This document shows, in pieces, positions 4,924-35,094 of a stretch of DNA of 64,000 nucleotides. The DNA is taken from the NCBI GenBank assembly GCA_005862225.1, contig SZXV01000010.1, forward strand, positions 62,001-126,000. Direction: 5' to 3'. The number at the start of each line of letters is the position of its first letter. Position 1 is the first letter of the stretch. The translations under genes and the position numbers were made by a program. The DNA comes from Chlorobium sp. GTDB lineage: Bacteria; Bacteroidota; Chlorobiia; Chlorobiales; Chlorobiaceae. Below the pieces are notes generated by a model. That model had not been told where the DNA came from. It was given only the letters and a program-made list of their open reading frames with translations, and made no database searches.

Positions 4924-5080
4924 TGAAATAACCTGTTTTCAGTTTGAGAAATAGATCAACTGACAGGGGTAAGCAAAAGGCATAGGTAACGACATGAGCA
5001 TCAACAAGGTAATGCAAAAAGAGGTACAGCTTTGCCCCGACTATATCCCGTAGTCCGATTGTATTCATGCAAAAATAACT

Positions 5081-5300
5081 GGCAGGTCTCCTGACTATCA
5101 CGGCTTGGTTCCGTTTCGGCCTTCCCGCAGTTTTCCAGAGGCGGAAAACATTGCAGTGACCTGAAACGACCAGCAAAATCAATGCATTATGGCAATGCGA
5201 AGCTTTTCTGGTATACCGTTGTACAGTTGCGGGTACAGTGTACGATTCTCACGTACTTCCCTATTCTCCGGCTTTTAAGCCGGCACCAGCTACGACGAAA
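5081..5300 (-). promoter_or_regulatory. cobalamin (B12) riboswitch
   Basis: On the minus strand: GGTGCCGGC..., GCCGGAGAATAGGGAAG, CCCGCAACTGTA, and the 3' conserved GTCAGGAGACCTGCC; located upstream of the TonB receptor and divergent from nudix/btuF. Confidence 0.88.
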
Positions 5301-5485
5301 GAACAATTATCGAGCCTTAAATACCAAATAATTTTCTGAAATCCAACAGCAAGCTCCCCATCATTCCCGGAAAAAATTATGCCAATCCTGAAATCAGTTT
5401 AACCAGGCTTCAAGAGATATCATCTTTTTTTACCATCTTTGCGGGTAAAGCAAAAAATGCGGTTAACAACCATATCATCCGTCCT

Positions 5486-13536: not shown

Positions 13537-13612
13537 TTGAAAACACTGAAACAACCGATCGGGCAAGAATGCATCATCTCGCTTGCCTCCATGTATGTCC
13601 CGATCACGTCGC
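13537..13612 (+). pseudogene. fragment of DUF4143-type ATPase (C-terminal tail)
   Basis: KTLKQPIGQECIISLASMYVPITS matches QTLKQPIGQGCVISLAPMYLPITS of the intact copy (about 22507-22572). Confidence 0.75.
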
Positions 13613-13763
13613 CACATCCCCGTTCATGTATCAGGATAAGAAAACGCTACACTCAGTACCCGTTCAGAGCCGGTACTGTTATTGATAGTTGCATGACAGT
13701 GAGACTGACCGGGTTGCTAAAGGTTATATTAATTGTTACCTTGTATCAAAAGGAGATTTGATT

Positions 13764-14033
13764 ATGTCACAGACAAAAGGTGTCAAGTTAGGCGATAATA
13801 CACAACAACGACTTGTGGCTCTCGGTCGTATTCGAGACAGATCACCCCACTGGCTTATGTGCAGGGCAATCGAAACGTACCTGGATCGCGAAGAAAAATA
13901 CGAGCAGGAAAAGCGGGAGGATATGGAGCGGTGGGATCAGTATCAATTGACCGGCGTTGCAGTGCCCCATGAACAAGCGGCTGAGTGGCTTGAAAATCTG
14001 GCGCAAGGGAAGGTGACGACGTGCCCCGGATAA
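13764..14033 (+). CDS. ribbon-helix-helix (CopG/ParD-like) antitoxin
   Basis: MSQTKGVKLGDNTQQRLVALGRIRDRSPHWLMCRAIETYLDREE; overlaps the downstream toxin gene. Confidence 0.8.
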   Translation: MSQTKGVKLGDNTQQRLVALGRIRDRSPHWLMCRAIETYLDREEKYEQEKREDMERWDQYQLTGVAVPHEQAAEWLENLAQGKVTTCPG

Positions 14034-14311
14034 AATGGCTTCCGGATGCATTGGCCGATGTCGATCGGCTTCATGCGTTCCTGCATGAAAAAAGCCCCGA
14101 GGTGGCAGCACGAGCGGCAAGGGTCATTCTTGACGGTGCAGGACTACTGGAATCGATACCGGAGATTGGCCGCCCCATGGACGATGACACCGGCAGACGC
14201 GAACTGGTTCTCTCTTTCGGTGCGGGTGCTTTTGTGCTTCGTTATATGTGGGACAGAGGCGATACTGTTGTTATTATCCGTGTCTGGCACAGCAAAGAAA
14301 GCAGAATGTAG
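14021..14311 (+). CDS. RelE/ParE family toxin
   Basis: IKWLPDALADVDRLHAFLHEKSPEVAARAARVI...GRRELVLSFGAGAFVLRYMWDRGDTVVIIRVWHSKE. Confidence 0.85.
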   Translation: MPRIKWLPDALADVDRLHAFLHEKSPEVAARAARVILDGAGLLESIPEIGRPMDDDTGRRELVLSFGAGAFVLRYMWDRGDTVVIIRVWHSKESRM

Positions 14312-14495
14312 AACCTTAAAAGCCAGTCACCATCCTTTGAATCCATCGGGCGAAATGGCCAAATTCTGATTCTTTCACAAAAGTTTACGTAGTTGCGAGC
14401 GACCCGTCATCTGTCACCAGCACAAGCGAATCAGCGCGAAGCGTCCTTATACAGCGCATTGTCAGGCATAGTTTCAACCGGCACCATCTCTTCAA

Positions 14496-14766
14496 TCTAT
14501 AATAAAATCAGCCGAGTCATGCCTTACAAAACAAGAACACTTGAGATCTTTTTTCTGCAAGCAAGTTAAAAATTCTCCGTCATGCTGCTGACAGTACCTC
14601 GCCAAACCGGAAAAACAACATTCTGGAATTACAGGGCATGATCCTTGGTTGAACCAACTCAGCATCCTGCCGGCCAGTTCAGCAAGCTTGTTTCTCTGAA
14701 GCGGAACTCCGACGTTAATCAATCACGTCATCGAGACGGCTTTCGATAGCGACTATCTGTAATTCA
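14496..14766 (+). pseudogene. internally deleted copy of the DUF4143 ATPase unit (5' end joined to 3' trailer)
   Basis: TCTATAATAAAATCAGCCGAGTCATGCCTTACAAAACAAGAACACTTGAGATC... through CCGGAAAAACAACATTC matches 21363-21495, then jumps to the trailer matching about 22620-22755. Confidence 0.85.
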
Positions 14767-14767
14767 A

Positions 14768-14998
14768 TTATCGGCCAATTGCAAAATTCTGCTCGTCTGA
14801 TTGTCGAGGATGATGCGTCCCGTCCATGTTGACTTCCGGGTTAGGCGTTTTAAGTTGCTTCGCCAATGTAAAGCCTATTTTTTCTGCCAGTAATACAGGA
14901 ACGGCGTTTCCAATTTGACGCATAGCCTCACCCCAGGCACCTTTGATGACGAAATCATCAGGGAACGTTTGAATTCGTTTTGCTTCAAAGGTCGTCAG
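14768..14998 (-). pseudogene. truncated C5-cytosine DNA methyltransferase (C-terminal fragment)
   Basis: TTFEAKRIQTFPDDFVIKGAWGEAMRQIGNAVPVLLAEKIGFTLAKQLKTPNPEVNMDGTHHPRQSDEQNFAIGR is identical in sequence to the end of 22760..23971. Confidence 0.92.
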
Positions 14999-15408
14999 GC
15001 ACTGCTTGTCCAACTTTTGCCGCCAGGAAAACACAATCCACGAAGTGTTCTACAAAGCATGGTAAAGCTATCAAATCAATTCTTGAGGATACGAGCCTCA
15101 CCACCTCAAGCTTCTGATTGTGAAAGTCTCGGGGATAAGCGGATATCAAATCACCTATATGGTCGCTGACATATTTAGGGTCATACTGGGCAACGATTCT
15201 CATTGCACGATAATCCGGAAAGCACTTTTTAACTACCTCAATGGACTCTGGCAGTAGAGCTTCTGCAACCTTGATTCTATAGCTAAAATCATTTATTCCG
15301 TCGGATGACACGAGGAAATCAAGTGCTTTCTGAAGCTCCTCATTCGTGGCTCACCACAATGCAGCCTCCTGTTTTCTGGACTTTCACGATTCTTGGGAAG
15401 AATCGACT

Positions 15409-18110: not shown

Positions 18111-18418
18111 CAACAAAGATGTCGCGTTTTTTTAAAAAAATCAATCTTTTTTATCCGGGTTCAGAACGACTTCCCGGAGAACTTTCCAATGTTTGACTGG
18201 TCGTGAACCCCAGCGTTCAGGATGTGTAGCCTGAGCATGTCTCATTGTTCTGTTTCTCTGTTCAAAAATTGCTTCTGCCTGACCAGAGCGCATCTGTTCC
18301 GGTGTTACGTAACCAAGAGATGAATGCAAATGTTCAGTATTGTACCAATGGACAAATGCGGCCATCCATAATCTTGCTTCGTTCAGGTCTTCGAATCGTC
18401 CAGGATAATTAACCCGGG
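18111..18418 (-). mobile_element. IS3-family remnant (C-terminus of OrfB transposase)
   Basis: RVNYPGRFEDLNEARLWMAAFVHWYNTEHLHSSLGYVTPEQMRSGQAEAIFEQRN typical of IS3 OrfB; cut at the junction with ATPase fragment near 18418. Confidence 0.85.
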
Positions 18419-18920
18419 AGTGGACTTCACCAGAAACGCTGGAAGCGGGAGCGATGTCAGGAGCCATTCTTGAAAGCTGGGTAGTATCGGAGATCATCAA
18501 AAGCTGGTGGCACAACGGCAAGCGAGCCCCCATTTTCTACTATCGCGACAAGGATGCCAAAGAGATTGATCTGCTCATTCATCAGAACGGCACACTCTAT
18601 CCGGTAGAAATAAAAAAATCGGCAAGTCCGGGAAAAGAGGCCATTCACCATTTCGAGGTACTTTAAACCCTGAAACAACCGATCGGCCAAGGAGGCATCA
18701 TCTCGCTTGCCCCCATGTATCTCCCGATCACATCAACCATCGATAACGTACCAGTGGGAATGGTGTAAACCCGGGTTCAGGAATACAGTGCATGATCCCG
18801 GGTTGAACCGACTCAGCATTATGCCTGTCAGTTTGGCAAGTTTGTTTCTCTGAAGCGGATCTCCGAAGTCAATAAATCACGTCATAGAGACTGCTTTCGA
18901 TAGCGGCTATCTGTAATTTT
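18419..18920 (+). pseudogene. 3' part of the DUF4143 ATPase unit (C-terminus plus trailer)
   Basis: Matches 22256-22755: EAGAMSGAILESWVVSEIIKSWWHNGKRAPIFYYRDKDAKEIDLLIHQNGTLYPVEIKKSASPGKEA plus trailer ending CTATCTGTAATT. Confidence 0.88.
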
Positions 18921-19293: not shown

Positions 19294-19593
19294 TCAGCGC
19301 CTGATTTGGTCCTCTTTTGCTGCTCCATCCACCAGTGTTCCGTTAATGAACTTGTGAATAATACTTGAGATATAACTCTGATACGGCAACCCTTCCTTGA
19401 CGGCCTTTCTTTGCAACTCAGTGAGGTCTCTTTCAGAAATCCGAATATTCAGCCTCCTGTCCTTTCTCAAAGTATTACAGGCATACTCCGTCAATTCTTT
19501 TCTTCTTTTTGGAAGGTCGGCGACAGGAACCCATTCACCTTTTTCAAAGCTATCCAGTATTTCCTTCTCTTCTTTGGTCAGTTTAGCCGTCAT
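19294..19593 (-). CDS. BrnA-like antitoxin
   Basis: RRLNIRISERDLTELQRKAVKEGLPYQSYISSIIHKF; overlaps the BrnT-like toxin gene. Confidence 0.78.
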   Translation of the reverse strand: MTAKLTKEEKEILDSFEKGEWVPVADLPKRRKELTEYACNTLRKDRRLNIRISERDLTELQRKAVKEGLPYQSYISSIIHKFINGTLVDGAAKEDQIRR

Positions 19594-19867
19594 GTTTTTC
19601 TCCAAAATATTGCTGAGTGGCCTTCCTGCTCGGGATAATGGTTTTCAGAAACAACTCTTCCTCATTCTCAACATAAGGTACAAGATATGCGTAATTGGTC
19701 ACGCTCAGTACCATGATTCGTTGTCCAAGGTATACCTTCTGGTTGGGATGAAGATAATCGTCCAATATCTCACCCCTTTCAATAAAGAAAACCACATCCT
19801 CGAAACAGATTCCCCGTGACGCTTTGAGTGCCACGCTCTTTTCCGTGCTCCAATTGATGCGTTTCAT
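19583..19867 (-). CDS. BrnT-like toxin
   Basis: INWSTEKSVALKASRGICFEDVVFFIERGEILDDYLHPNQKVYLGQRIMVLSVTNYAYLVPYVEN...LKTIIPSRKATQQY; DUF497-like architecture. Confidence 0.78.
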   Translation of the reverse strand: MKRINWSTEKSVALKASRGICFEDVVFFIERGEILDDYLHPNQKVYLGQRIMVLSVTNYAYLVPYVENEEELFLKTIIPSRKATQQYFGEKHDG

Positions 19868-19927: not shown

Positions 19928-19989
19928 GGTCTAACGCCTAAATAACCCGCAAAACCGAAGGTTTTGACAGGTTGATCTATATGTTAGCT
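19928..19989 (-). repeat. attC-like integron recombination site
   Basis: Minus strand: AGCTAACATATAGATCAACCTGTCAAAACCTTCGGTTTTGCGGGTTATTTAGGCGTTAGACC; terminal TAAC...GTTAGAC (GTTRRRY) and inner inverted repeat AACCTGTCAAAACC/GGTTTTGCGGGTT; about 27 nt after the stop at 20017. Confidence 0.75.
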
Positions 19990-20016: not shown

Positions 20017-20679
20017 TCAGAACTCATTAGCTTGCTTTGAGTTTTCGAGATACTGCAACTCTTTGCTGTAGTATTCTACAATGTGACCAATATCGAAGTC
20101 CTTCCCGGAAAGAGATAAATAGATTTCAGTTGTATTCGTTTCCCATGAAGTTACGAAGGTAACATTTCCAGAACTGATCTGCTGTCCCCAATGGGTTGGT
20201 TCTTTCTTCCAAATGCTGTTATCATCTTTCCAGACTTGCTTAGAACTACTACTCTTGCCATATTTGCCTTCAAGAATTGTCTTAGCATTGTTGTAGTCAT
20301 CAATATAGTCGTTATAGTTAGTATGTCGCGACTGAAAAATATACCTACCTCGAACGAGACGATCGTCAACATAGTAGTAGGCGACAAAGCAGTCGATGCC
20401 AGCAACTTTGGTTTGGAATGCTATGACATTATCCTTATCATAATCTGGCTTCTTCCCTTCGGAGGAAATAGCTGCCGCTCTTGGTGTACCCCAAAGCACG
20501 TTTCTAAAATCCGAAGAATTTGCTGACTTGTCCTGAACGACCTTCCATGTTCCATTGTCGTAAAGAACAGCTACTCGCCCGTCGTAAAGTATAATCTTTT
20601 CGTCTCCAATCGCTGTCGCTGTCGACACAACGAGAAACAAGAAAAAGAGCGATAGATGAATACTGCTTTGAATCCTCAT
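20017..20679 (-). CDS. hypothetical exported protein
   Basis: Signal peptide SLFFLFLVVSTATAIGDEK; coding-like composition; directly followed by an attC-like site. Confidence 0.7.
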   Translation of the reverse strand: MRIQSSIHLSLFFLFLVVSTATAIGDEKIILYDGRVAVLYDNGTWKVVQDKSANSSDFRNVLWGTPRAAAISSEGKKPDYDKDNVIAFQTKVAGIDCFVAYYYVDDRLVRGRYIFQSRHTNYNDYIDDYNNAKTILEGKYGKSSSSKQVWKDDNSIWKKEPTHWGQQISSGNVTFVTSWETNTTEIYLSLSGKDFDIGHIVEYYSKELQYLENSKQANEF

Positions 20680-20746: not shown

Positions 20747-21090
20747 TAACAATAATTAGATGGATCCGCCTATACTGCGGATTTTTGAGTTAAAGTACAT
20801 ATAAGACGTCATTTTCAAACCAAAAAAATAGTTCTAACCGTTTTTTTATAAATAAGTTAAATCTTTTATTGCTTTTTATTTCAGCGTTTTATATGGATCG
20901 GCATAAAAACGATACTTACAAGCCGTCAACAGGCCTTTTTACTCCATAACCACCTTTTTTATAACTTGCGTGTAAATTATTGTAGCACTTATATCTTTAT
21001 ACTCCAAAAATCAGATCGTCTTTACTAAACTGTGTTCATGGACTCCATCCTGGAAGGAAAAAAATATAACGATAGCAAAGATGAGCCTCT
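20747..21090. repeat. dispersed repeat, copy 1 (about 345 bp)
   Basis: TAACAATAATTAGATGGATCCGCCTATACTGC...GATAGCAAAGATGAGCCTCT matches 27555-27901 with scattered substitutions. Confidence 0.88.
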
Positions 21091-21096
21091 CATAGT

Positions 21097-21345
21097 TCAC
21101 TCACCTATCGCCTCACTCAACCTCTCGCGGACAAAATGGCTGAGACGGGCTATGCCGAGGTTTCGGGCCAGTTCAACCTGGTCGCCATTGGTTGCAAGCA
21201 GTTTGTCTATGGCACCGAGGATCCCCAAGGCACTGACCTCTTCCTGGAAGATGGATTCGACCATGTGCATGACGCGCCGAACCTTTTCCCCACCTGCATC
21301 ACTCTCAGAGGTACTATCTTTTTTACCTGTTGCACTCTTTCATTT
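21097..21345 (-). pseudogene. C-terminal relic of an unidentified protein
   Basis: Minus-strand frame ...SATGKKDSTSESDAGGEKVRRVMHMVESIFQEEVSALGILGAIDKLLATNGDQVELARNLGIARLSHFVRERLSEAIGE*; no start in the window segment, abuts the ATPase unit. Confidence 0.5.
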
Positions 21346-21386
21346 TTTCGGCTATTTTTATACTCTATAATAAAATTAGCCGAATC

Positions 21387-22607
21387 ATGCCATACAAGAC
21401 CAGAACACTTGAGATCTTTTTCCTGCAAGCGAGTCAACAATTCCCCGTCATGCTGCTGACCGGACCTCGCCAAACCGGAAAAACAACATTCCTTCGCCAC
21501 CTGGCAGGAGAAGAGCGGTCGTATGCCTCTCTTGACGACCCGATGCTCCGGGCACTCGCCAGGGAAGAACCCGCGCTTTTCCTGCAACGCTTTACCTCAC
21601 CGGTTCTCATCGACGAAATCCAGTACGCACCCCAGCTTCTGCCCTACATCAAAATGGCGGTCGACAACGAACAGCAAGCCGGAAAATTCTGGCTCACCGG
21701 CTCACAGCAATTCCATTTGATGAAAGGGGTCAGTGAATCGCTCGCTGGTCGTGTCGGGGTGGTCAACCTGCTTGGATTCTCGCAGAGAGAGCTTTTTGAC
21801 ACTCCTTCTGCAGAGCCGTTTCTGCCGATTCCAGAAATCATGAAACAACGTGCAGAAAGCCGGCAATTGCTTCTGCCGGAACTCTACCGGAAAATCTGGC
21901 TTGGATCGTTTCCCGCTCTTCATCAGGAGAATCCTGCCGATCATGACCTGTTCTACAGTTCATACGTCCAGACCTATCTGCAACGTGATGTGCGGGATCT
22001 GGCCAATGTCGGCGACGAAAGTGCATTCCTGAGTTTTCTCCGCTCCTGTGCAGCACGAACCGGCCAGATGCTCAATATCCTGGATCTTTGCCGCAACAGC
22101 GACATCAACCATGCGACCGGAAAACGATGGCTCTCGATTCTTGAAAATTCAGGCATCGTCTACCTGCTCGAACCATGGCACACCAATATCAACAAAAGAG
22201 TGGTGAAAACCCCGAAACTGTACTTCCTCGATACGGGACTTGCAGCCTGGCTGACCGAGTGGACATCACCCGAAACGCTGGAAGCGGGAGCGATGTCAGG
22301 AGCCATTCTTGAAAGCTGGGTGGTATCGGAGATCATCAAAAGCTGGTGGCACAACGGCAAACGAGCCCCCATTTATTACTATCGCGACAAGGATGCAAAA
22401 GAGATTGATCTGCTCATTCATCAGAACGGCACACTCTATCCGGTAGAAATAAAAAAATCGGCAAGTCCGGGAAAAGAGGCCACTGGCCATTTCGAGGTGC
22501 TTCAAACCCTGAAACAACCGATCGGGCAGGGGTGCGTCATCTCGCTTGCCCCCATGTATCTCCCGATCACATCTACCATCAATAACGTACCAGTGGGAAT
22601 GGTGTAA
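21387..22607 (+). CDS. AAA ATPase with DUF4143 domain (intact copy)
   Basis: LLTGPRQTGKTTFLRHLAGEERSYASLDDP Walker A; SPVLIDEIQYAPQLLPYIK; C-terminal DUF4143 SWVVSEIIKSWWHNGKRAPIYYYRDKDAKEIDLLI. Confidence 0.92.
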   Translation: MPYKTRTLEIFFLQASQQFPVMLLTGPRQTGKTTFLRHLAGEERSYASLDDPMLRALAREEPALFLQRFTSPVLIDEIQYAPQLLPYIKMAVDNEQQAGKFWLTGSQQFHLMKGVSESLAGRVGVVNLLGFSQRELFDTPSAEPFLPIPEIMKQRAESRQLLLPELYRKIWLGSFPALHQENPADHDLFYSSYVQTYLQRDVRDLANVGDESAFLSFLRSCAARTGQMLNILDLCRNSDINHATGKRWLSILENSGIVYLLEPWHTNINKRVVKTPKLYFLDTGLAAWLTEWTSPETLEAGAMSGAILESWVVSEIIKSWWHNGKRAPIYYYRDKDAKEIDLLIHQNGTLYPVEIKKSASPGKEATGHFEVLQTLKQPIGQGCVISLAPMYLPITSTINNVPVGMV

Positions 22608-22759
22608 CCCGGGATCAGGAATACAGTGCATGATCACTGGTTGAACCGACTCAGCATTTTGTCGGTCAGTTTGGCAAGCTTGTTTCTCTGAAGCGGAACT
22701 CCGACGTTAATCAATCACGTCATCGAGACGGCTTTCGATAGCGACTATCTGTAATTCAA

Positions 22760-23971
22760 TTATCGGCCAATTGCAAAATTCTGCTCGTCTGATTGTCGAG
22801 GATGATGCGTCCCGTCCATGTTGACTTCCGGGTTAGGCGTTTTAAGTTGCTTCGCCAATGTAAAGCCTATTTTTTCTGCCAGTAATACAGGAACGGCGTT
22901 TCCAATTTGACGCATAGCCTCACCCCAGGCACCTTTGATGACGAAATCATCAGGGAACGTTTGAATTCGTTTTGCTTCAAAGGTTGTCAGGTATCGAACG
23001 CGGCCATCATTGAAACGGATCATGTTTTCCCCTCCTGGCACTCCGTGTCCGCCTGCTTTGATTGTTTTTGACGGCCAATCAAAATCACTACCTGTATGCC
23101 CTTGGTAGGCACGCGCACCATCCCGAAAGATGTGGTCGATTATTCCATGATCTGATTTTGGGTCTGGCGTATCACATAATGCATCCCGCATGGTTTGCCA
23201 GGGCAATAATTCTGGTTCAAACATTCCGTACTTGTCTCTTAGTCGAGATATTCTCTCTCTCAGAGATGCATCTACATCAGGTTGCAAGAGTTTCGGTACT
23301 CTATGGCGCGACCAGTATTCGCCCGTTACGTACATGTCCCAGAGAAGCCTCTCTTCTGAGTGTGTTTCAACAGGGAATGACCAGGGCAATGAGATGTCTG
23401 CTCTTGTTCCAACAATTACAACCCGCTCTCGTGTTTGTGGCACGCCATAATCTGCGGCATTTATCAGTTTGAACTGCACATTGTACTTTTTCCCTGTATA
23501 GTAAAGTCTACCAATATTGCGTAGTTCATCGAGGTGCCTTTTCCAGTTGGAGTCATTGCCCGAAATAAAATCCGGGTAACGTAATCTGAGAATTATGTAT
23601 TCAAAATACTCGGAAAAAGTTGGGCGAAGCAGGCCTTTAACATTTTCAAATATAAATGCTTTTGGAGCAAGTTTTTCGATTGCGCGTATGGCATACGGAA
23701 ACATATCCCGGTTGTCCAGGTCGGCTTTGTGCTTGCCGCCCAGTGAAAATGGCTGGCACGGCGGGCCTCCTGCAACAATATCAATATTCGCAAGGCTGTT
23801 TAAATCAAAATCTTTTATGTCACCAAAGAAGACTCGCGCAGGATCAAAATTCTCAGAAAGCGACTCACACGCATGCCGATTAAACTCAACAAAGGCGGTG
23901 TGCTCAAATCCGGACAACTCCAGGCCCTTTGCCAGACCGCCTGCACCTGAAAAAATTTCAAGAGTCTTCAT
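22760..23971 (-). CDS. C5-cytosine DNA methyltransferase (probable partner of an Eco29kI-like REase)
   Basis: EIFSGAGGLAKGLELSGF, GGPPCQPFSLGGK, FENVKGL, C-terminal RYLTTFEAKRIQTFPDDF...IGNAVP. Confidence 0.93.
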   Translation of the reverse strand: MKTLEIFSGAGGLAKGLELSGFEHTAFVEFNRHACESLSENFDPARVFFGDIKDFDLNSLANIDIVAGGPPCQPFSLGGKHKADLDNRDMFPYAIRAIEKLAPKAFIFENVKGLLRPTFSEYFEYIILRLRYPDFISGNDSNWKRHLDELRNIGRLYYTGKKYNVQFKLINAADYGVPQTRERVVIVGTRADISLPWSFPVETHSEERLLWDMYVTGEYWSRHRVPKLLQPDVDASLRERISRLRDKYGMFEPELLPWQTMRDALCDTPDPKSDHGIIDHIFRDGARAYQGHTGSDFDWPSKTIKAGGHGVPGGENMIRFNDGRVRYLTTFEAKRIQTFPDDFVIKGAWGEAMRQIGNAVPVLLAEKIGFTLAKQLKTPNPEVNMDGTHHPRQSDEQNFAIGR

Positions 23972-24664: not shown

Positions 24665-24679
24665 TTTCTTCTCCTTTAT

Positions 24680-24750
24680 GCCAACGCCGCGCTCTGCGGC
24701 AAATTTGGAGCGCAGCGGAAAATTTGTCCGACAGAAGCGCCTTGTTAGGT
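24680..24750 (-). repeat. attC-like integron recombination site
   Basis: Minus strand: ACCTAACAAGGCGCTTCTGTCGGACAAATTTTCCGCTGCGCTCCAAATTTGCCGCAGAGCGCGGCGTTGGC; arm GCGCTTCTGTCGGACAAATTT pairs with AAATTTGCCGCAGAGCGC leaving single unpaired bases; ACCTAAC...GTTGGC ends. Confidence 0.88.
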
Positions 24751-24753
24751 GCT

Positions 24754-25590
24754 TTAAATACCATTTCTCGCTGACTTAATATCAAGAAGATTAATTTTAT
24801 CAATCTTGCTCTTGTGGATGACAATCGTTAGCTTCGCCGGGTACTTGAACCGCATTTCACTAATGCGGAATGTCCACAACATTATTTTCAAAAGATCTTC
24901 ATCACTTATAGTTTTATGCCCTTGAATTCGTGTAATCCCAGAACCAAAAATCGGCGTAGTTACGCTCTGCTGACCATACACATTGTTGACCTTGTCCCAA
25001 AAATTAATTAGAAATTCAAGGTACTCAGGAATAGTGAGCACTGCTTTATTGTTATTATCGAACTTCGAAAAAGCGGCCAAAAGAAAATCTTTATATACGC
25101 AAATAGAGCCGATCTGATACCGCCACTTTTTACCCACGACTCGCTCGGCGTTGCTCCCAAGTTTTTCACTTTCATCGAAGGGATAGTTATCGATATGGCT
25201 ATCAAGTTCTGAAACTTGATCACCACAATGATGTTTTATAAAAATTCCGTTCAGTGAATTTTCAGAAATTATTTTGTTATCTACGATTGTGTCAAAGTAC
25301 TCATTGAAAGCAATGGCCTTTAAGCCGGGTTCGGAAAAAATGTCGCCTACTTTTATCGTGACCTCACTTCCTTCAATATTGATATCAATTTTATTGAGAT
25401 TGTTAGACCAAATCCAAATTGCCAAATAAATCAACGCCAACAGCCCAATAAATATCCATCCATAGGTGCTTTTGCAATTTGTTGGAATATCGACAAACAA
25501 TACAACTAAAGAAAGAGTCGCGCTTATGGCTGAGGTAATCTTGAGAAAGTTCTCAATCACCCTCCTGTCAATGAAACTAACCTTTGTCAT
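24754..25590 (-). CDS. TM-macro domain protein (type II Thoeris ThsA-like)
   Basis: Two N-terminal TM helices (ITSAISATLSLVVLFVDIP, WIFIGLLALIYLAIWIW) followed by a macro-like domain (ITVKVGDIFSEP-type: VTIKVGDIFSEPGLKAIAFNEYFDTIVDNKIISENSLNGIFI); 4-bp overlap with the TIR gene. Confidence 0.75.
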   Translation of the reverse strand: MTKVSFIDRRVIENFLKITSAISATLSLVVLFVDIPTNCKSTYGWIFIGLLALIYLAIWIWSNNLNKIDINIEGSEVTIKVGDIFSEPGLKAIAFNEYFDTIVDNKIISENSLNGIFIKHHCGDQVSELDSHIDNYPFDESEKLGSNAERVVGKKWRYQIGSICVYKDFLLAAFSKFDNNNKAVLTIPEYLEFLINFWDKVNNVYGQQSVTTPIFGSGITRIQGHKTISDEDLLKIMLWTFRISEMRFKYPAKLTIVIHKSKIDKINLLDIKSARNGI

Positions 25591-26150
25591 ATTTTGTACC
25601 AGTAATAATCTGGACTCGTTTTGGTGGCAACCATAAAATCGCTGTCTTTGAGCGCTGCCTCAATGATGTCCTTCTTGTTGGGGATGTGAAGTGACGGAAC
25701 CTTACTCATTGAATCTCTAAAAATAGGTAAGTTACCCCACAGATTCTTTACAGACTGTCTCAGTGAACCATTAATCAGCAGGCTGGCCTTAGAGTCATAC
25801 TCTGGATATACAACAATAACAGGCAGTCCTTGATTATTTATTCCGTAGTCAATTTCTTCACGTAGAGCTCTTGAGCTTACTGTGCTGGAGCTAAGAAAAA
25901 GTACAACATTTTTAGAACTCCTAAGACGCTCTTGAAGTCTTGGCTTTAGTGTTTTTTCCCAATCGCTGCCGTCACGGACGTTGTATGTCTTATCATGCGA
26001 ATCATTAAATGGAAATGATGCTTCTTTTCCTTTCCATGCCCGCAACATGTTGTAATAGCAGAAATCTTTTGTTGCATTTGCGCCGAGAGCGCTTGCGTTG
26101 AAAGGTTCTGCAACATAAAAGGCTGCGTAATTGCCGTTTTTATATACCAT
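25587..26150 (-). CDS. TIR-like (MTH538/DUF1863-type) domain protein (Thoeris ThsB-like)
   Basis: AAFYVAEPFNASALGANATKDFCYYNMLRAWKGKEASFPFNDSHDKTYNVRDGSDWEKTLKPRLQERLRSSKNVVLFLSSSTVSSRALREEIDYGINNQGLPVIVVYPE. Confidence 0.82.
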   Translation of the reverse strand: MVYKNGNYAAFYVAEPFNASALGANATKDFCYYNMLRAWKGKEASFPFNDSHDKTYNVRDGSDWEKTLKPRLQERLRSSKNVVLFLSSSTVSSRALREEIDYGINNQGLPVIVVYPEYDSKASLLINGSLRQSVKNLWGNLPIFRDSMSKVPSLHIPNKKDIIEAALKDSDFMVATKTSPDYYWYKI

Positions 26151-26194
26151 TTTTTTCTCCAAATTTTAATTTTCCAGTAGCCAAGCTTGGCCCC

Positions 26195-26360
26195 TAACAA
26201 TAATTAGATGGATCAGCCAATACCGCAGATTTTTTAATTCTAACCCATATAAGCCGCAAATTCAAAATCATATAAAACGCTGTTAATTTCCTTATTCTCA
26301 GCAATTTATACCATAATCACTTTTTATTTGAGCGTCTTATATTGATCAGCATAAGACCGC
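26195..26360. repeat. dispersed repeat, diverged partial copy
   Basis: TAACAATAATTAGATGGATCAGCC...CTTATATTGATCAGCATAA, similar to 20747-20915 and 27555-27720. Confidence 0.7.
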
Positions 26361-26722
26361 TGCTAAAACCCCATAGTTCCAGAAGTTCCTACCACCAGCT
26401 CGAGCATCGGGAAATATACGTCATATTCAGCAAAATTATATCCTCAGAATCAACCAGTATTGTTGCTGACAGCCTGATGCAGTTCATCTTCATCGGCTAT
26501 GGCATCCTGCACCAGATCATCAACGAAACCGATGGAGCCCATTATGAGTTGGAAGTCTTTACTATGAGAGTAAGATCGATAATAAATTCACCGAGGTGAA
26601 ATGTGGATGCTCAGGAAAATGTCAACAAGTTTTTCAAACGTTTCCTCGTAAGGCGTTGAGTAAAGAGAGTAGGCGAACGTCGCTTTTGCAATTTGAGAGA
26701 ATACCGAATGTCAAAGCTGTTT

Positions 26723-27523
26723 CTATTGCACAGCCTCATAGCGGATTCCGAGTGCAAATGTGTTTCGGCCGTTACAGCTTGGACATATCCAACTCTTCCC
26801 GACTTCCAGCTCATGGAGCCAAACGACTATTTTGTGAGTACAATCACCATTCGCGCACTCAACTTCATATTGTTGCGGTTGCCATTCGACATTGTTATTC
26901 CCTTTGTCGACAATGAGGTATGAAGCATGGCACTCGTAGCATTCGACCTCCACTATTTCTTGCCCGTAGGGTATGCGCTTACGAACTGGTTTCCTGCATT
27001 CCACACACTCCATCGTCGCAAAACTACCCAATGTAACATTGAAGACTGGGGATACAAGAACTGCTCTGACAAACGCTGCAATTTCCTCACAACGGAATCG
27101 TATCTTGCCAAAGTCCAGCGACTTTCCTGCTCTGACCTGTTTCATCGACTGGACATGGAGATAGTTGCCTAAGGCGTCATAATGTTTCCGCAAGGTGGCC
27201 ATATTGAGAACTTTCTCTGAACCCAAAGACCTCATCACCTGGGCCGGAACGCCGTACTCTTCTTCTTCGCCAAATGCGAAGGAGCTATCCTTGTCGGCTG
27301 TGGGATCTATATCCAGAAGCACCGTCATCACCTTGCGCGGTTGCCAAGTCTCGTATTCTGCTGGTGGAAATTCGTCCTTGTACGCAAGGGCACGGTCGTA
27401 AGTAAGTGCCTCCATTGACATCCGGAGTTCAAGGGCGGCGTATTTCAACCGTTCATCATCGCCGTTCCCAAGCTCTTCTTCGTACCGTTTAAGACATTTT
27501 CGCGCGTAATTGCGATAATTCAT
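26723..27523 (-). CDS. hypothetical protein with several C-terminal CxxC pairs (zinc-ribbon-like)
   Basis: Full-length ORF; CVECRKPVRKRIPYGQEIVEVECYECHASYLI and CANGDCTHKIVVWLHELEVGKSWICPSCNGRNTF. Confidence 0.8.
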   Translation of the reverse strand: MNYRNYARKCLKRYEEELGNGDDERLKYAALELRMSMEALTYDRALAYKDEFPPAEYETWQPRKVMTVLLDIDPTADKDSSFAFGEEEEYGVPAQVMRSLGSEKVLNMATLRKHYDALGNYLHVQSMKQVRAGKSLDFGKIRFRCEEIAAFVRAVLVSPVFNVTLGSFATMECVECRKPVRKRIPYGQEIVEVECYECHASYLIVDKGNNNVEWQPQQYEVECANGDCTHKIVVWLHELEVGKSWICPSCNGRNTFALGIRYEAVQ

Positions 27524-27554: not shown

Positions 27555-27901
27555 TAACAATAATTAGATGGATCCGCCTATACTGCAGATTTTTGAGTTG
27601 CCGTACATATATGACGTCATTTTCAAACCAAAAAAAAATAGCTTTAACCTTTTTTTTATAAATAAATTAACCCTTTTATTGCTTTTTATTTCAGCATCTT
27701 ATACGGATCGGCATAAAATACGATGTTTACAAGCCGTCAGCAGGCCTTTTTACTCCATGACCACTCTTTTTATAACCTGCGTATAAGCCATTGTAGCACT
27801 TATATCATTATGCTCCAAAAATCAGATCGTCGTTACTAAACAGTGCTCATAGACTCCATCCCGATAGGGAAAAAACAGGGCGATGGCAAAGATGAGCCTC
27901 T
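27555..27901. repeat. dispersed repeat, copy 2 (about 345 bp)
   Basis: Matches 20747-21090. Confidence 0.88.
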
Positions 27902-27903
27902 TA

Positions 27904-27995
27904 CTCTATAATAAAATCAGCCGAGTCGCACCTTACAAAACAAGAACACCCGAGTTCTTTTTCCTGCCAGCGAGTCAACAACTCCCCCTCACAAA
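27904..27995 (+). pseudogene. 5' fragment of the DUF4143 ATPase unit
   Basis: TCTATAATAAAATCAGCCGAGTCGCACCTTACAAAACAAGAACACCCGAGTTCTTTTTCCTGCCAGCGAGTCAACAACTCCCC matches 21363-21450. Confidence 0.82.
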
Positions 27996-32528: not shown

Positions 32529-32885
32529 ATCAATTTGCAAAGCTTGTTCAAAAACCACCTTATGGGCAGCGCTATCACTCCCGGAATGCGCAAACAACCC
32601 TGATACAACGGGTTACAGGAAAATGTCTGAAGAGCGGTATGAACCTGCAAGGAAAGGCATACATACCATCATCATTCCCGGTTCTCTTGTCCGGGATGGA
32701 ATTGGCACCGATCATCGTGCAATGACGGTTGCCAAGGCTTCTCAGGGCCAGTCCCTCCACCTTTCTGGATGATAGCTTGAAATCTTTAATAGAACATTTA
32801 GTCTGATTAATCTACAACAGGGATTAGTATTTTACAAACAGCCTGAAGAAACGAAGGTACTTTAAATGATATTTAATTATTTCCC

Positions 32886-34196
32886 ATGACCACCGCACGA
32901 GAACTGGCTTTGAATGTTTTGCAGTCACTTGAAACCGGAAAACAGCGATCTGACCAGATTCTGCACCGCACGCTGCAACATTGTGAACTGAACCGCGTTG
33001 ATCGGGCGCTTTCAACAGGATTGGTTAACGGAGTTTTGCGTTACCGTCTTCAGATAGATTTTATTATCGGGCGCTTCTATCATCACAATTTTGAAAAGGC
33101 GGCTTCTGTCCTGAAGAACATTCTTCGCCTCGGTGTCTATCAGATTCTTTTCCTCAACAAGGTGCCAGACTGGGCGGCCGTGAACGAATGCGTGAAACTG
33201 GCCAGAAAGTACAAGGGTGAACGTCTGTCGAAATTAGTCAACGGGGTGTTGAGAAAAATTACGCCTGAGAGCGTCACACTTGACGAGTGGCTGAAGAATA
33301 AAACCATTGAGGAACAGCTTTCAATACAATACTCACACCCGCAATGGCTGGTTGAACGCTGGATCGAGGCTTTCGGAAGAGAAAAAACAGAATCTATCCT
33401 TTCCTATAACAATCAGTTCCCGCTGTTTGGATTCAGAATAAACCGCCTGAAAACGTCGGAAGAGAAGCTGTTTGCTGATCCGGCACTTGCGGTTGCGCAT
33501 GAACCGTGCAGTGTGGATCCGTTCTTTCTTTCAAAAGATTTTAACTCTTTTGAACCGGCCGTGACTGATGGTCGTCTTACTGTTCAGAACCCGACACAGG
33601 GACTTGCCTGCCTGCTGCTTAATCCCGCTCCCGGCATGACGGTGGTTGACTTGTGCGCAGCACCTGGAGGCAAGGCTACCTTTATAGGGGAGTTGATGCA
33701 AAACCGTGGCCGGATTATCGCTGTCGACCGTTATGAAAAAAAACTTTCAAGAATAGAGGCTCATGCTGAGGCGCTCGGTATTACCATCATAAAAACTGTT
33801 GCGGAAGATGCACGGAGTTTTGTGCCTGAATTCCGCCCCGATGCCATCCTGCTTGATGCTCCCTGTTCGGGTACCGGGGTTCTTGGCCGACGCGCAGAAT
33901 TACGCTGGAAACTAAGCCCTGAAATGCTTCTGGAGCTCCGAACGCTGCAAGCCGAACTCCTTGATCATGCTGCGGAGCTGCTGGATGAAGGGGGAAAGCT
34001 TATCTATGCCACCTGTTCAATTGAAGCCGAAGAAAATAACCTGCTGATTGAGGCATTTCTTCAGAGACATTCTGATTTTATTGCGGGCCCCGAAGGCGCT
34101 CTGCTCACGCTGCCGGGTGAGCAGCCGGGTTTTGACGGCGGGTTCTGCCAGAGGTTGCTTAAACAGGGCAAAGAGAGAGATGGAGAGTCTGGATAA
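32886..34196 (+). CDS. rsmB: 16S rRNA (cytosine-967-C5)-methyltransferase RsmB
   Basis: NusB-like N-terminus, VDLCAAPGGKATFIGELMQNRGRI, DAPCSGTGVLGRRAELRWK, LIYATCSIEAEEN. Confidence 0.94.
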   Translation: MTTARELALNVLQSLETGKQRSDQILHRTLQHCELNRVDRALSTGLVNGVLRYRLQIDFIIGRFYHHNFEKAASVLKNILRLGVYQILFLNKVPDWAAVNECVKLARKYKGERLSKLVNGVLRKITPESVTLDEWLKNKTIEEQLSIQYSHPQWLVERWIEAFGREKTESILSYNNQFPLFGFRINRLKTSEEKLFADPALAVAHEPCSVDPFFLSKDFNSFEPAVTDGRLTVQNPTQGLACLLLNPAPGMTVVDLCAAPGGKATFIGELMQNRGRIIAVDRYEKKLSRIEAHAEALGITIIKTVAEDARSFVPEFRPDAILLDAPCSGTGVLGRRAELRWKLSPEMLLELRTLQAELLDHAAELLDEGGKLIYATCSIEAEENNLLIEAFLQRHSDFIAGPEGALLTLPGEQPGFDGGFCQRLLKQGKERDGESG

Positions 34197-35094
34197 TCAC
34201 TTCAAAAGAGTGCTGGAAAGTTTCCTGAACTATATGCTTGTCGAACGCAACTTTTCGGGAAATACCAGGGATTCATATAACAACGATCTCAGTCGCTATC
34301 TGCTTTTCATGCATCGCCATTCGAGACCGATTGAGGCTATTACGACCGCCCATATCAATGAATTCATCACTGAACTTTACTCCATCGGCCTTGAGGCAAG
34401 TTCAATGGCTCGAAATATTTCTGCAATCCGTTCGTTTCATAAATTCCTTGTGATCGAACGAACACTCGACAACAACCCGGCTGAGAGTCTCCGGCAACCC
34501 AAGCAGGCAAAATACCTCCCGAACGTCCTCACCATTGACGAAACCATGCGACTGCTTGATGCGCCAATGACTCTCGTGCCTCCCGGAAAATATCTGCTGC
34601 GAGACAAGGCGATGCTTGAACTCCTCTACGCAACAGGGGTCAGAGTCAGTGAACTCATTACTATCCAGCAGCAGAGTCTCTATCTCGATGCTGGATTTAT
34701 AAGAATTTTCGGGAAAGGATCGAAGGAGAGGCTTGTGCCGGTTGGAAGCTCAGCCATTGAATGGGTGAAGCGATACCAGAGTGGACTTCGAGTCACTCTG
34801 GTTAAGCACAATTCCGATGATTACCTGTTTCTCAATGCTCGCGGAATAAAACTGTCGCGCATGGCACTTTTTACCATGATTCAAAAATATGCTGCGATGG
34901 CAGGAATAGAAAAACATATCAGCCCGCACACCTTCCGCCATACTTTTGCCACCCATCTGCTCGAAGGCGGAGCCGATCTTCGCGCAGTCCAGGAGATGCT
35001 TGGCCACAGCTCAATTGTCACCACCCAAATCTACACGCACATCGACCGCTCATTTATCAAGGAGGTGCATAAAACCTTTCATCCAAGAGGATAA
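34180..35094 (+). CDS. xerD: site-specific tyrosine recombinase XerD
   Basis: SAM-like N-terminus; ATGVRVSEL, HTFRHTFATHLLEGGADLRAVQEMLGHSSIVTTQIYTHID. Confidence 0.92.
   Translation: MESLDNHFKRVLESFLNYMLVERNFSGNTRDSYNNDLSRYLLFMHRHSRPIEAITTAHINEFITELYSIGLEASSMARNISAIRSFHKFLVIERTLDNNPAESLRQPKQAKYLPNVLTIDETMRLLDAPMTLVPPGKYLLRDKAMLELLYATGVRVSELITIQQQSLYLDAGFIRIFGKGSKERLVPVGSSAIEWVKRYQSGLRVTLVKHNSDDYLFLNARGIKLSRMALFTMIQKYAAMAGIEKHISPHTFRHTFATHLLEGGADLRAVQEMLGHSSIVTTQIYTHIDRSFIKEVHKTFHPRG

Follow-up and report, generated by a model that had tools for sequence, protein, structure and literature searches.

The usual picture of an integron is a single integrase with a single attI site and a single cassette array. 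The recombination of the attC bottom-strand hairpin with attI by the integrase IntI is established integron biology. Integrons are already known in Chlorobi (PMC2426708, PMC9024848), and the intI of Chlorobium phaeobacteroides groups with the Treponema denticola type, in which intI is transcribed toward attI (PMC3607928). The attI sites outside resistance integrons are poorly described (PMC9024848). The use of CALINs (clusters of attC lacking integrase) by IntI in trans has been described in a study of Xanthomonas (PMC12444791). No report of multiple or orphan attI sites in integrons was found in the literature searched, whose coverage was incomplete.

The locus described here lies in the window, which is the whole stretch of 64,000 nucleotides analysed. 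It resembles the T. denticola-type sedentary chromosomal integron in its attC type, its GTTAGGT-like R′ box in attI, its cassettes of accessory genes and toxin-antitoxin pairs and, in relatives, its intI-attI-cassette order. The difference is that a genome here has many attI copies, most of which lack intI, and each copy heads a short cassette run of its own. Like the CALINs of IntegronFinder, it has attC cassettes and no intI nearby. A CALIN implies no attI, whereas here a recognisable attI heads each cluster, and cassettes were replaced there after the loss of intI. Frequent intI decay and cassette clusters at several loci are shared with the inactivated intI and dispersed CALINs of Xanthomonas (PMC12444791, available part), where a dispersed attI family is not reported; one is present here.

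The site at 19929–19989 is best explained as a functional-type attC that forms the 3′-end of a one-gene cassette (20749–19935), probably captured at the attI at 20747 by an IntI acting in trans. We give this reading, which rests on sequence comparison, a probability of about 0.88. The attC bottom strand would fold into a hairpin, IntI would recombine it at G^TT with the double-stranded attI, and the cassette gene would be inserted behind attI in the direction of transcription. The catalysing IntI would come from elsewhere in the genome or arrive on another element, and the cassette promoter would be carried by attI. Capture is placed in trans because the intI once fused to the attI at 20747 was already truncated.

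The attC site at 19929–19989 and its cassette

The features of the two cassettes and of the block that follows the first one are as follows.

19929–19989, minus strand: attC in question, 61 nt (fold, covariance model and comparative breakpoint)
20017–20679, minus strand: cassette gene, 220 aa, with an N-terminal hydrophobic segment
20749–19935, minus strand: one-gene cassette, 815 bp, from the crossover of attI copy 3 to the crossover of attC 19929
19583–19867, minus strand: BrnT-like toxin gene of the next cassette (weak match, E = 0.019, below cut-off)
19294–19605, minus strand: CopG/BrnA-like antitoxin gene of the same block (just below the curated cut-off)
24679–24750, minus strand: second attC, R″ ACCTAAC and R′ GTTGGCA (model R1, 20 bits, E = 0.023)
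25587–26162, minus strand: Thoeris ThsB (TIR-like), first cassette gene (PF08937, 2e-27; PADLOC ThsB, 1.6e-76)
24754–25590, minus strand: Thoeris ThsA (Macro-domain type), second cassette gene (PF20016, 6e-65; PADLOC ThsA, 2.8e-124)
26197–24685, minus strand: two-gene Thoeris cassette, 1513 bp, from the crossover of attI copy 2 to attC 24679

The minus-strand letters of 19929–19989 are AGCTAACATATAGATCAACCTGTCAAAACCTTCGGTTTTGCGGGTTATTTAGGCGTTAGAC. The initial annotation had marked an attC-like site on this strand about 27 nt past the stop codon of the 20017–20679 gene. The sequence is present and the distance is 27 nt; the site proper is 19929–19989, as the marked one included an extra 3′ C at 19928. 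Its boxes are R″ AGCTAAC (19989–19983) and R′ GTTAGAC (19935–19929), with the crossover at G(19935)^T(19934). They are able to pair, with 5/7 pairs formed, and position 2 of R″ is G where the consensus (RYYYAAC/GTTRRRY) has Y. The predicted fold is a single stem of −22.3 kcal/mol. Its base is 5 bp of R″/R′, followed by a 3/3 unpaired spacer (ATA vs GGC) and the 5-bp L box; further up, the stem is interrupted by an extrahelical C and, 6 bp later, an extrahelical T, and it ends in a 7-bp terminal hairpin closed by a TTC loop. The imperfect inverted core with a TTC loop noted earlier is seen in the computed fold. The unpaired central spacer and the variable terminal structure required of an attC are both found at 19929.

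The extrahelical bases are the top-strand C at position 16 and T at position 23, and they coincide with those of aligned class 1 attCs, a set taken from plasmids. The first extrahelical base on the R″-L″ arm is the bottom-strand G16 that Bouvier et al. (PMC2727003) describe as absolutely conserved. The site is like the class 1 attCs of aadA, orfF and cmlA in its R″/R′ and L″/L′ boxes, extrahelical bases 16 and 23, unpaired spacer and length of 61 nt, whereas the core and loop sequence, the host and the integrase lineage differ. In attC 24679, the first extrahelical base is T (A on the bottom strand), unlike the usual C/G.

A strict rule modelled on class 1 attCs, which required a single stem with more bulges in its 5′ arm and took energy into account, matched only 19929–19989 and 24679–24750 in the whole window. 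The same rule gave 15 sites in 60 Markov-shuffled windows (0.25 per window) and zero in about 187 kb of other Chlorobiia DNA. Folding every R″-R′ pair without the single-stem rule yielded many false hairpins in coding DNA. The covariance model R1 was made in this analysis from 14 attCs; none came from the window, three came from other parts of the window's genome, and the E-values it gives are approximate. In the covariance scan that the initial annotation had proposed, R1 ranked attC 19929 first in the window with 29.2 bits and E = 1.6e-4 (0.006 genome-wide); after the two attCs the next match had E = 0.8. The shuffles and the scan favour a real site over a chance hairpin. An Rfam search of the window gave no attC family match and returned only the SAM and cobalamin riboswitches, on the minus strand at 32666–32775 and 5064–5305. 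Judged from its predicted fold and the comparison with relatives, the minus-strand hairpin at 19929–19989 is a genuine integron attC.

A comparison with relatives had also been proposed, and it located a breakpoint exactly at the GTT triplet. The BrnT/BrnA (BrnTA) block at 19936–19269 recurs in two other species (G069:C143 and G054:C72) with 94.6% identity over 668 bp. The similarity begins at 19936, the C before G^TTAGACC, and the similarity to a third relative (G066) breaks at 19935. This breakpoint at 19936/19935 coincides with a crossover at the G^TT of R′. Upstream of the block, G069 and G054 have a different hairpin, which in G069 is the attC-like ATCTAACAAAATCACTTCACTTGACTGTCGGCTTCGCCGCCAGCAGGTGACCTTTTCGTTAGAC (R1 E = 0.007). 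No attC was found by R1 at the 3′ side of the BrnTA block in the window.

The 220-aa cassette protein had no match in Pfam, NCBIfam or PADLOC, and among 98 genomes of the class its gene was found nowhere else except for partial matches of 26–28% in one distant genus. The ThsB/ThsA pair is bounded exactly by an attI crossover and attC 24679. A DNA-level search of the other 97 class genomes found the Thoeris genes absent; the query matched in the attI core, the attC and its end only. Another genus (G021:C6) carries an attC that shares 86% identity with 24679 over 83 nt, and the ThsB/ThsA genes have no match there.

The R″ of attC 19929 agrees at 6/7 positions with the 5′-end of its own cassette, TTAGGT. 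The R″ of both window cassettes fits its own 5′-end at 6/7 and those of the neighbours at 4/7 and 5/7. Across seven attI-led runs, the own 5′-end fitted at least as well as the neighbour's in 16/16 cassettes, better in 8 and worse in 0. This is expected if the cassettes once were circles.

The attI copies and the absence of an intact integrase

Three copies of a repeat sit directly before minus-strand genes, next to the cassettes in the window.

27555–27725, minus strand: attI copy 1, crossover G(27558)^T(27557)
27727–27800, minus strand: decayed intI 3′-end upstream of copy 1, with a frameshift
26723–27523, minus strand: gene behind copy 1, 266 aa, no family found
26195–26365, minus strand: attI copy 2, without an intI stub, crossover G(26198)^T(26197), leading the Thoeris cassette
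20747–20915, minus strand: attI copy 3, about 165 nt, crossover G(20750)^T(20749), leading the cassette 20749–19935
20916–21000, minus strand: decayed intI 3′-end directly upstream of copy 3 (TAA at 20918–20916), aligned to intact intI 3′-ends

The repeats at 20747, 26195 and 27555 were assigned as attI because the same repeat directly follows the stop codon of an intact intI in relatives. Copy 3 is 74–84% identical to those attI regions, and intI reads toward attI in this lineage. No attC was detected after the gene at 26723–27523.

The initial annotation had read the two attCs as one array. The attC assignment holds, while the annotation missed that the repeats are attI and that the genome has no intact intI found. 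The sites, 4.7 kb apart, belong to two separate units, each with its own attI (20747 and 26195), and an ATPase gene in the opposite orientation lies between the units. The spacing said to be the same at both sites also differs, from gene to site (27 vs 3 nt) and from site to next gene (61 vs 14 nt). Repeated fragments of a DUF4143 ATPase gene and of the DNA methylase gene at 22760–23971 occur at 13537–15034, 18418–18918, 21330–22756 and 27902–27991, and the DUF4143 ATPase flanks attI copies 1 and 3.

In 39 distinct attI copies, the G^TT is invariant. Over the 60 nt that lead up to the crossover the information is mostly 1 to 2 bits per position, with 1.3–2 bits at most core positions as far as G^TT, and it drops to about 0.1 bit from +5. 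The 3′-end of the attI core, CTAAT-TATT-GTTAG, forms an L/R simple site. The core also contains a conserved inverted repeat, ATCYGC...GCGGAT (20747–20828 and equivalents). The consensus attI has a TATAAT-like box about 45 nt before the crossover, which by eye is degraded in copies 1 and 3. The attI copies without intI share a left edge, GCGTTnTTATGC, also a GTT, about 158–165 nt before the crossover. Such edges would fit a GTT-to-GTT movement of the attI unit itself; decay of many integrons or homologous recombination may also account for them. In several species an attI lies just behind the clpC terminator (L060 11608–11773, that is G000:C13:27607; L121, L125 and L128), intact or decayed and with different sequences behind it, and other species have no attI at that place.

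The genome of the window (G000) is 2.5 Mb in 13 contigs and 99.96% complete. It encodes no protein at the IntI cut-off of 265 bits, only stubs, and no complete integron (intact intI, attI and attC) was found in it. Only at C10 (L011 3467–3730) does a clear IntI piece survive, a 3′ remnant that adjoins serB and has a truncation point in common with G085 and G082. The tyrosine recombinases at C11:38965–39780 (495–497 aa), at 34048–35094 of the window and at C4:249414 were rejected as IntI candidates: all scored far below 265 bits and belong to ordinary XerC/D or to other recombinase types. The genome holds six full-length attI copies, two degraded cores (C3 and C4:43623) and about a dozen attCs, of which 6/12 lie at most 2.5 kb behind a same-strand attI (chance per attC about 0.4%). 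In the genus, attI matches occur in 52/65 genomes, with up to 12 listed in one genome, and intI exceeds the cut-off in 13/65. A second integrase-less run in the same genome (L061 6592–14420; G000:C4:692591–700419) has an attI behind rfbC and then five attCs. Among the genes carried there are one for an Mrr-type restriction enzyme and one for a protein that matched Schlafen AlbA_2 and gave weak matches to type I specificity.

Cassette exchange and the alternative readings

The loci G000:C10, G085:C2 and G082:C22 have serB and the intI truncation at −364 in common, with flank identity of 86–93%. The identity ends at +5/+6, and different cassettes lie beyond. In G053:C18, attI copy 3 has an orthologue that matches it at 88% identity over 1062 bp, a stretch that takes in the truncated intI; the break is at +3, and four other attCs follow. 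Between G062 and G084 the identity is 99.84% across 4878 bp as far as +5, beyond which they differ; this pair is weaker evidence, since the G062 contig stops about 190 bp further on. As the intI truncation is a shared one, the cassettes of at least one lineage changed after the local loss of intI. The simplest and most likely reading is that IntI acted in trans; a caveat is that attI is repeated and that the genomes of some relatives are drafts, in which joins at repeats can be wrong. The run of G085:C2 behind the truncated intI (L147 7515–11549) includes, behind an attC, a 5′-truncated version of the BrnTA block of the window; it also has what by eye is a class A beta-lactamase-like gene.

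These comparisons bear most directly on the possibility of a fossil integron, in which capture took place with intI intact in cis, intI later decayed, no recombination has occurred since, and the site is an inert CALIN remnant. The stubs of intI carry indels, the attI cores at C3 and C4:43623 are degraded, and some cassette ends have no attC. The genome in which no intact intI was found fits such a remnant, and it also counts against capture in trans, as present activity would be without a visible enzyme; the BrnTA block, with no detectable attC of its own, is a second point against capture in trans. The window units may be inert today. But species with the same truncated intI and flank hold different cassettes, with breaks at most 6 nt from G^TT, so at least one lineage changed its content after the loss. 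We consider the fossil reading unlikely, at about one chance in four.

The other two alternatives are much less probable. A chance hairpin or a transcription terminator of the 20017–20679 gene would account for an inverted repeat 27 nt past the stop codon, but the hairpin has no U-run behind it. The R″/R′ boxes, both extrahelical bases and the covariance score fit an attC, the shuffle and control rates are low, and in other species the homology of the downstream block stops exactly at the R′ crossover; this explanation is extremely improbable. The repeats at 20747, 26195 and 27555 could instead be an unrelated REP or MITE-like family with GTTA merely as an end motif, given that a genome can have as many as 12 copies, many of them lacking intI, and that the core has a conserved inverted repeat. 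Against this, the repeat lies directly behind an intact intI stop in relatives, as in Treponema-type integrons (PMC3607928). It also ends one-sidedly at G^TT, leading into cassettes that end in attC, and its last bases make the L/R simple site. We regard such a family as quite improbable. Capture of the 20749–19935 cassette in trans is the reading that we prefer.

A wider arrangement, which we hold tentatively and at somewhat less than even odds, is a distributed integron. Chlorobium chromosomes would carry many orphan attI platforms, on which an IntI resident only at times would act in trans. At every platform, cassettes would land and be expressed separately, phage-defence genes among them, and the attI unit may itself move GTT-to-GTT. 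The comparative breakpoints define an attI family dispersed over genomes mostly without intI. A Thoeris pair, an Mrr-type restriction enzyme and toxin-antitoxin genes are placed in such cassettes, and trans-acting integron integrases and multi-site cassette expression become directly testable.
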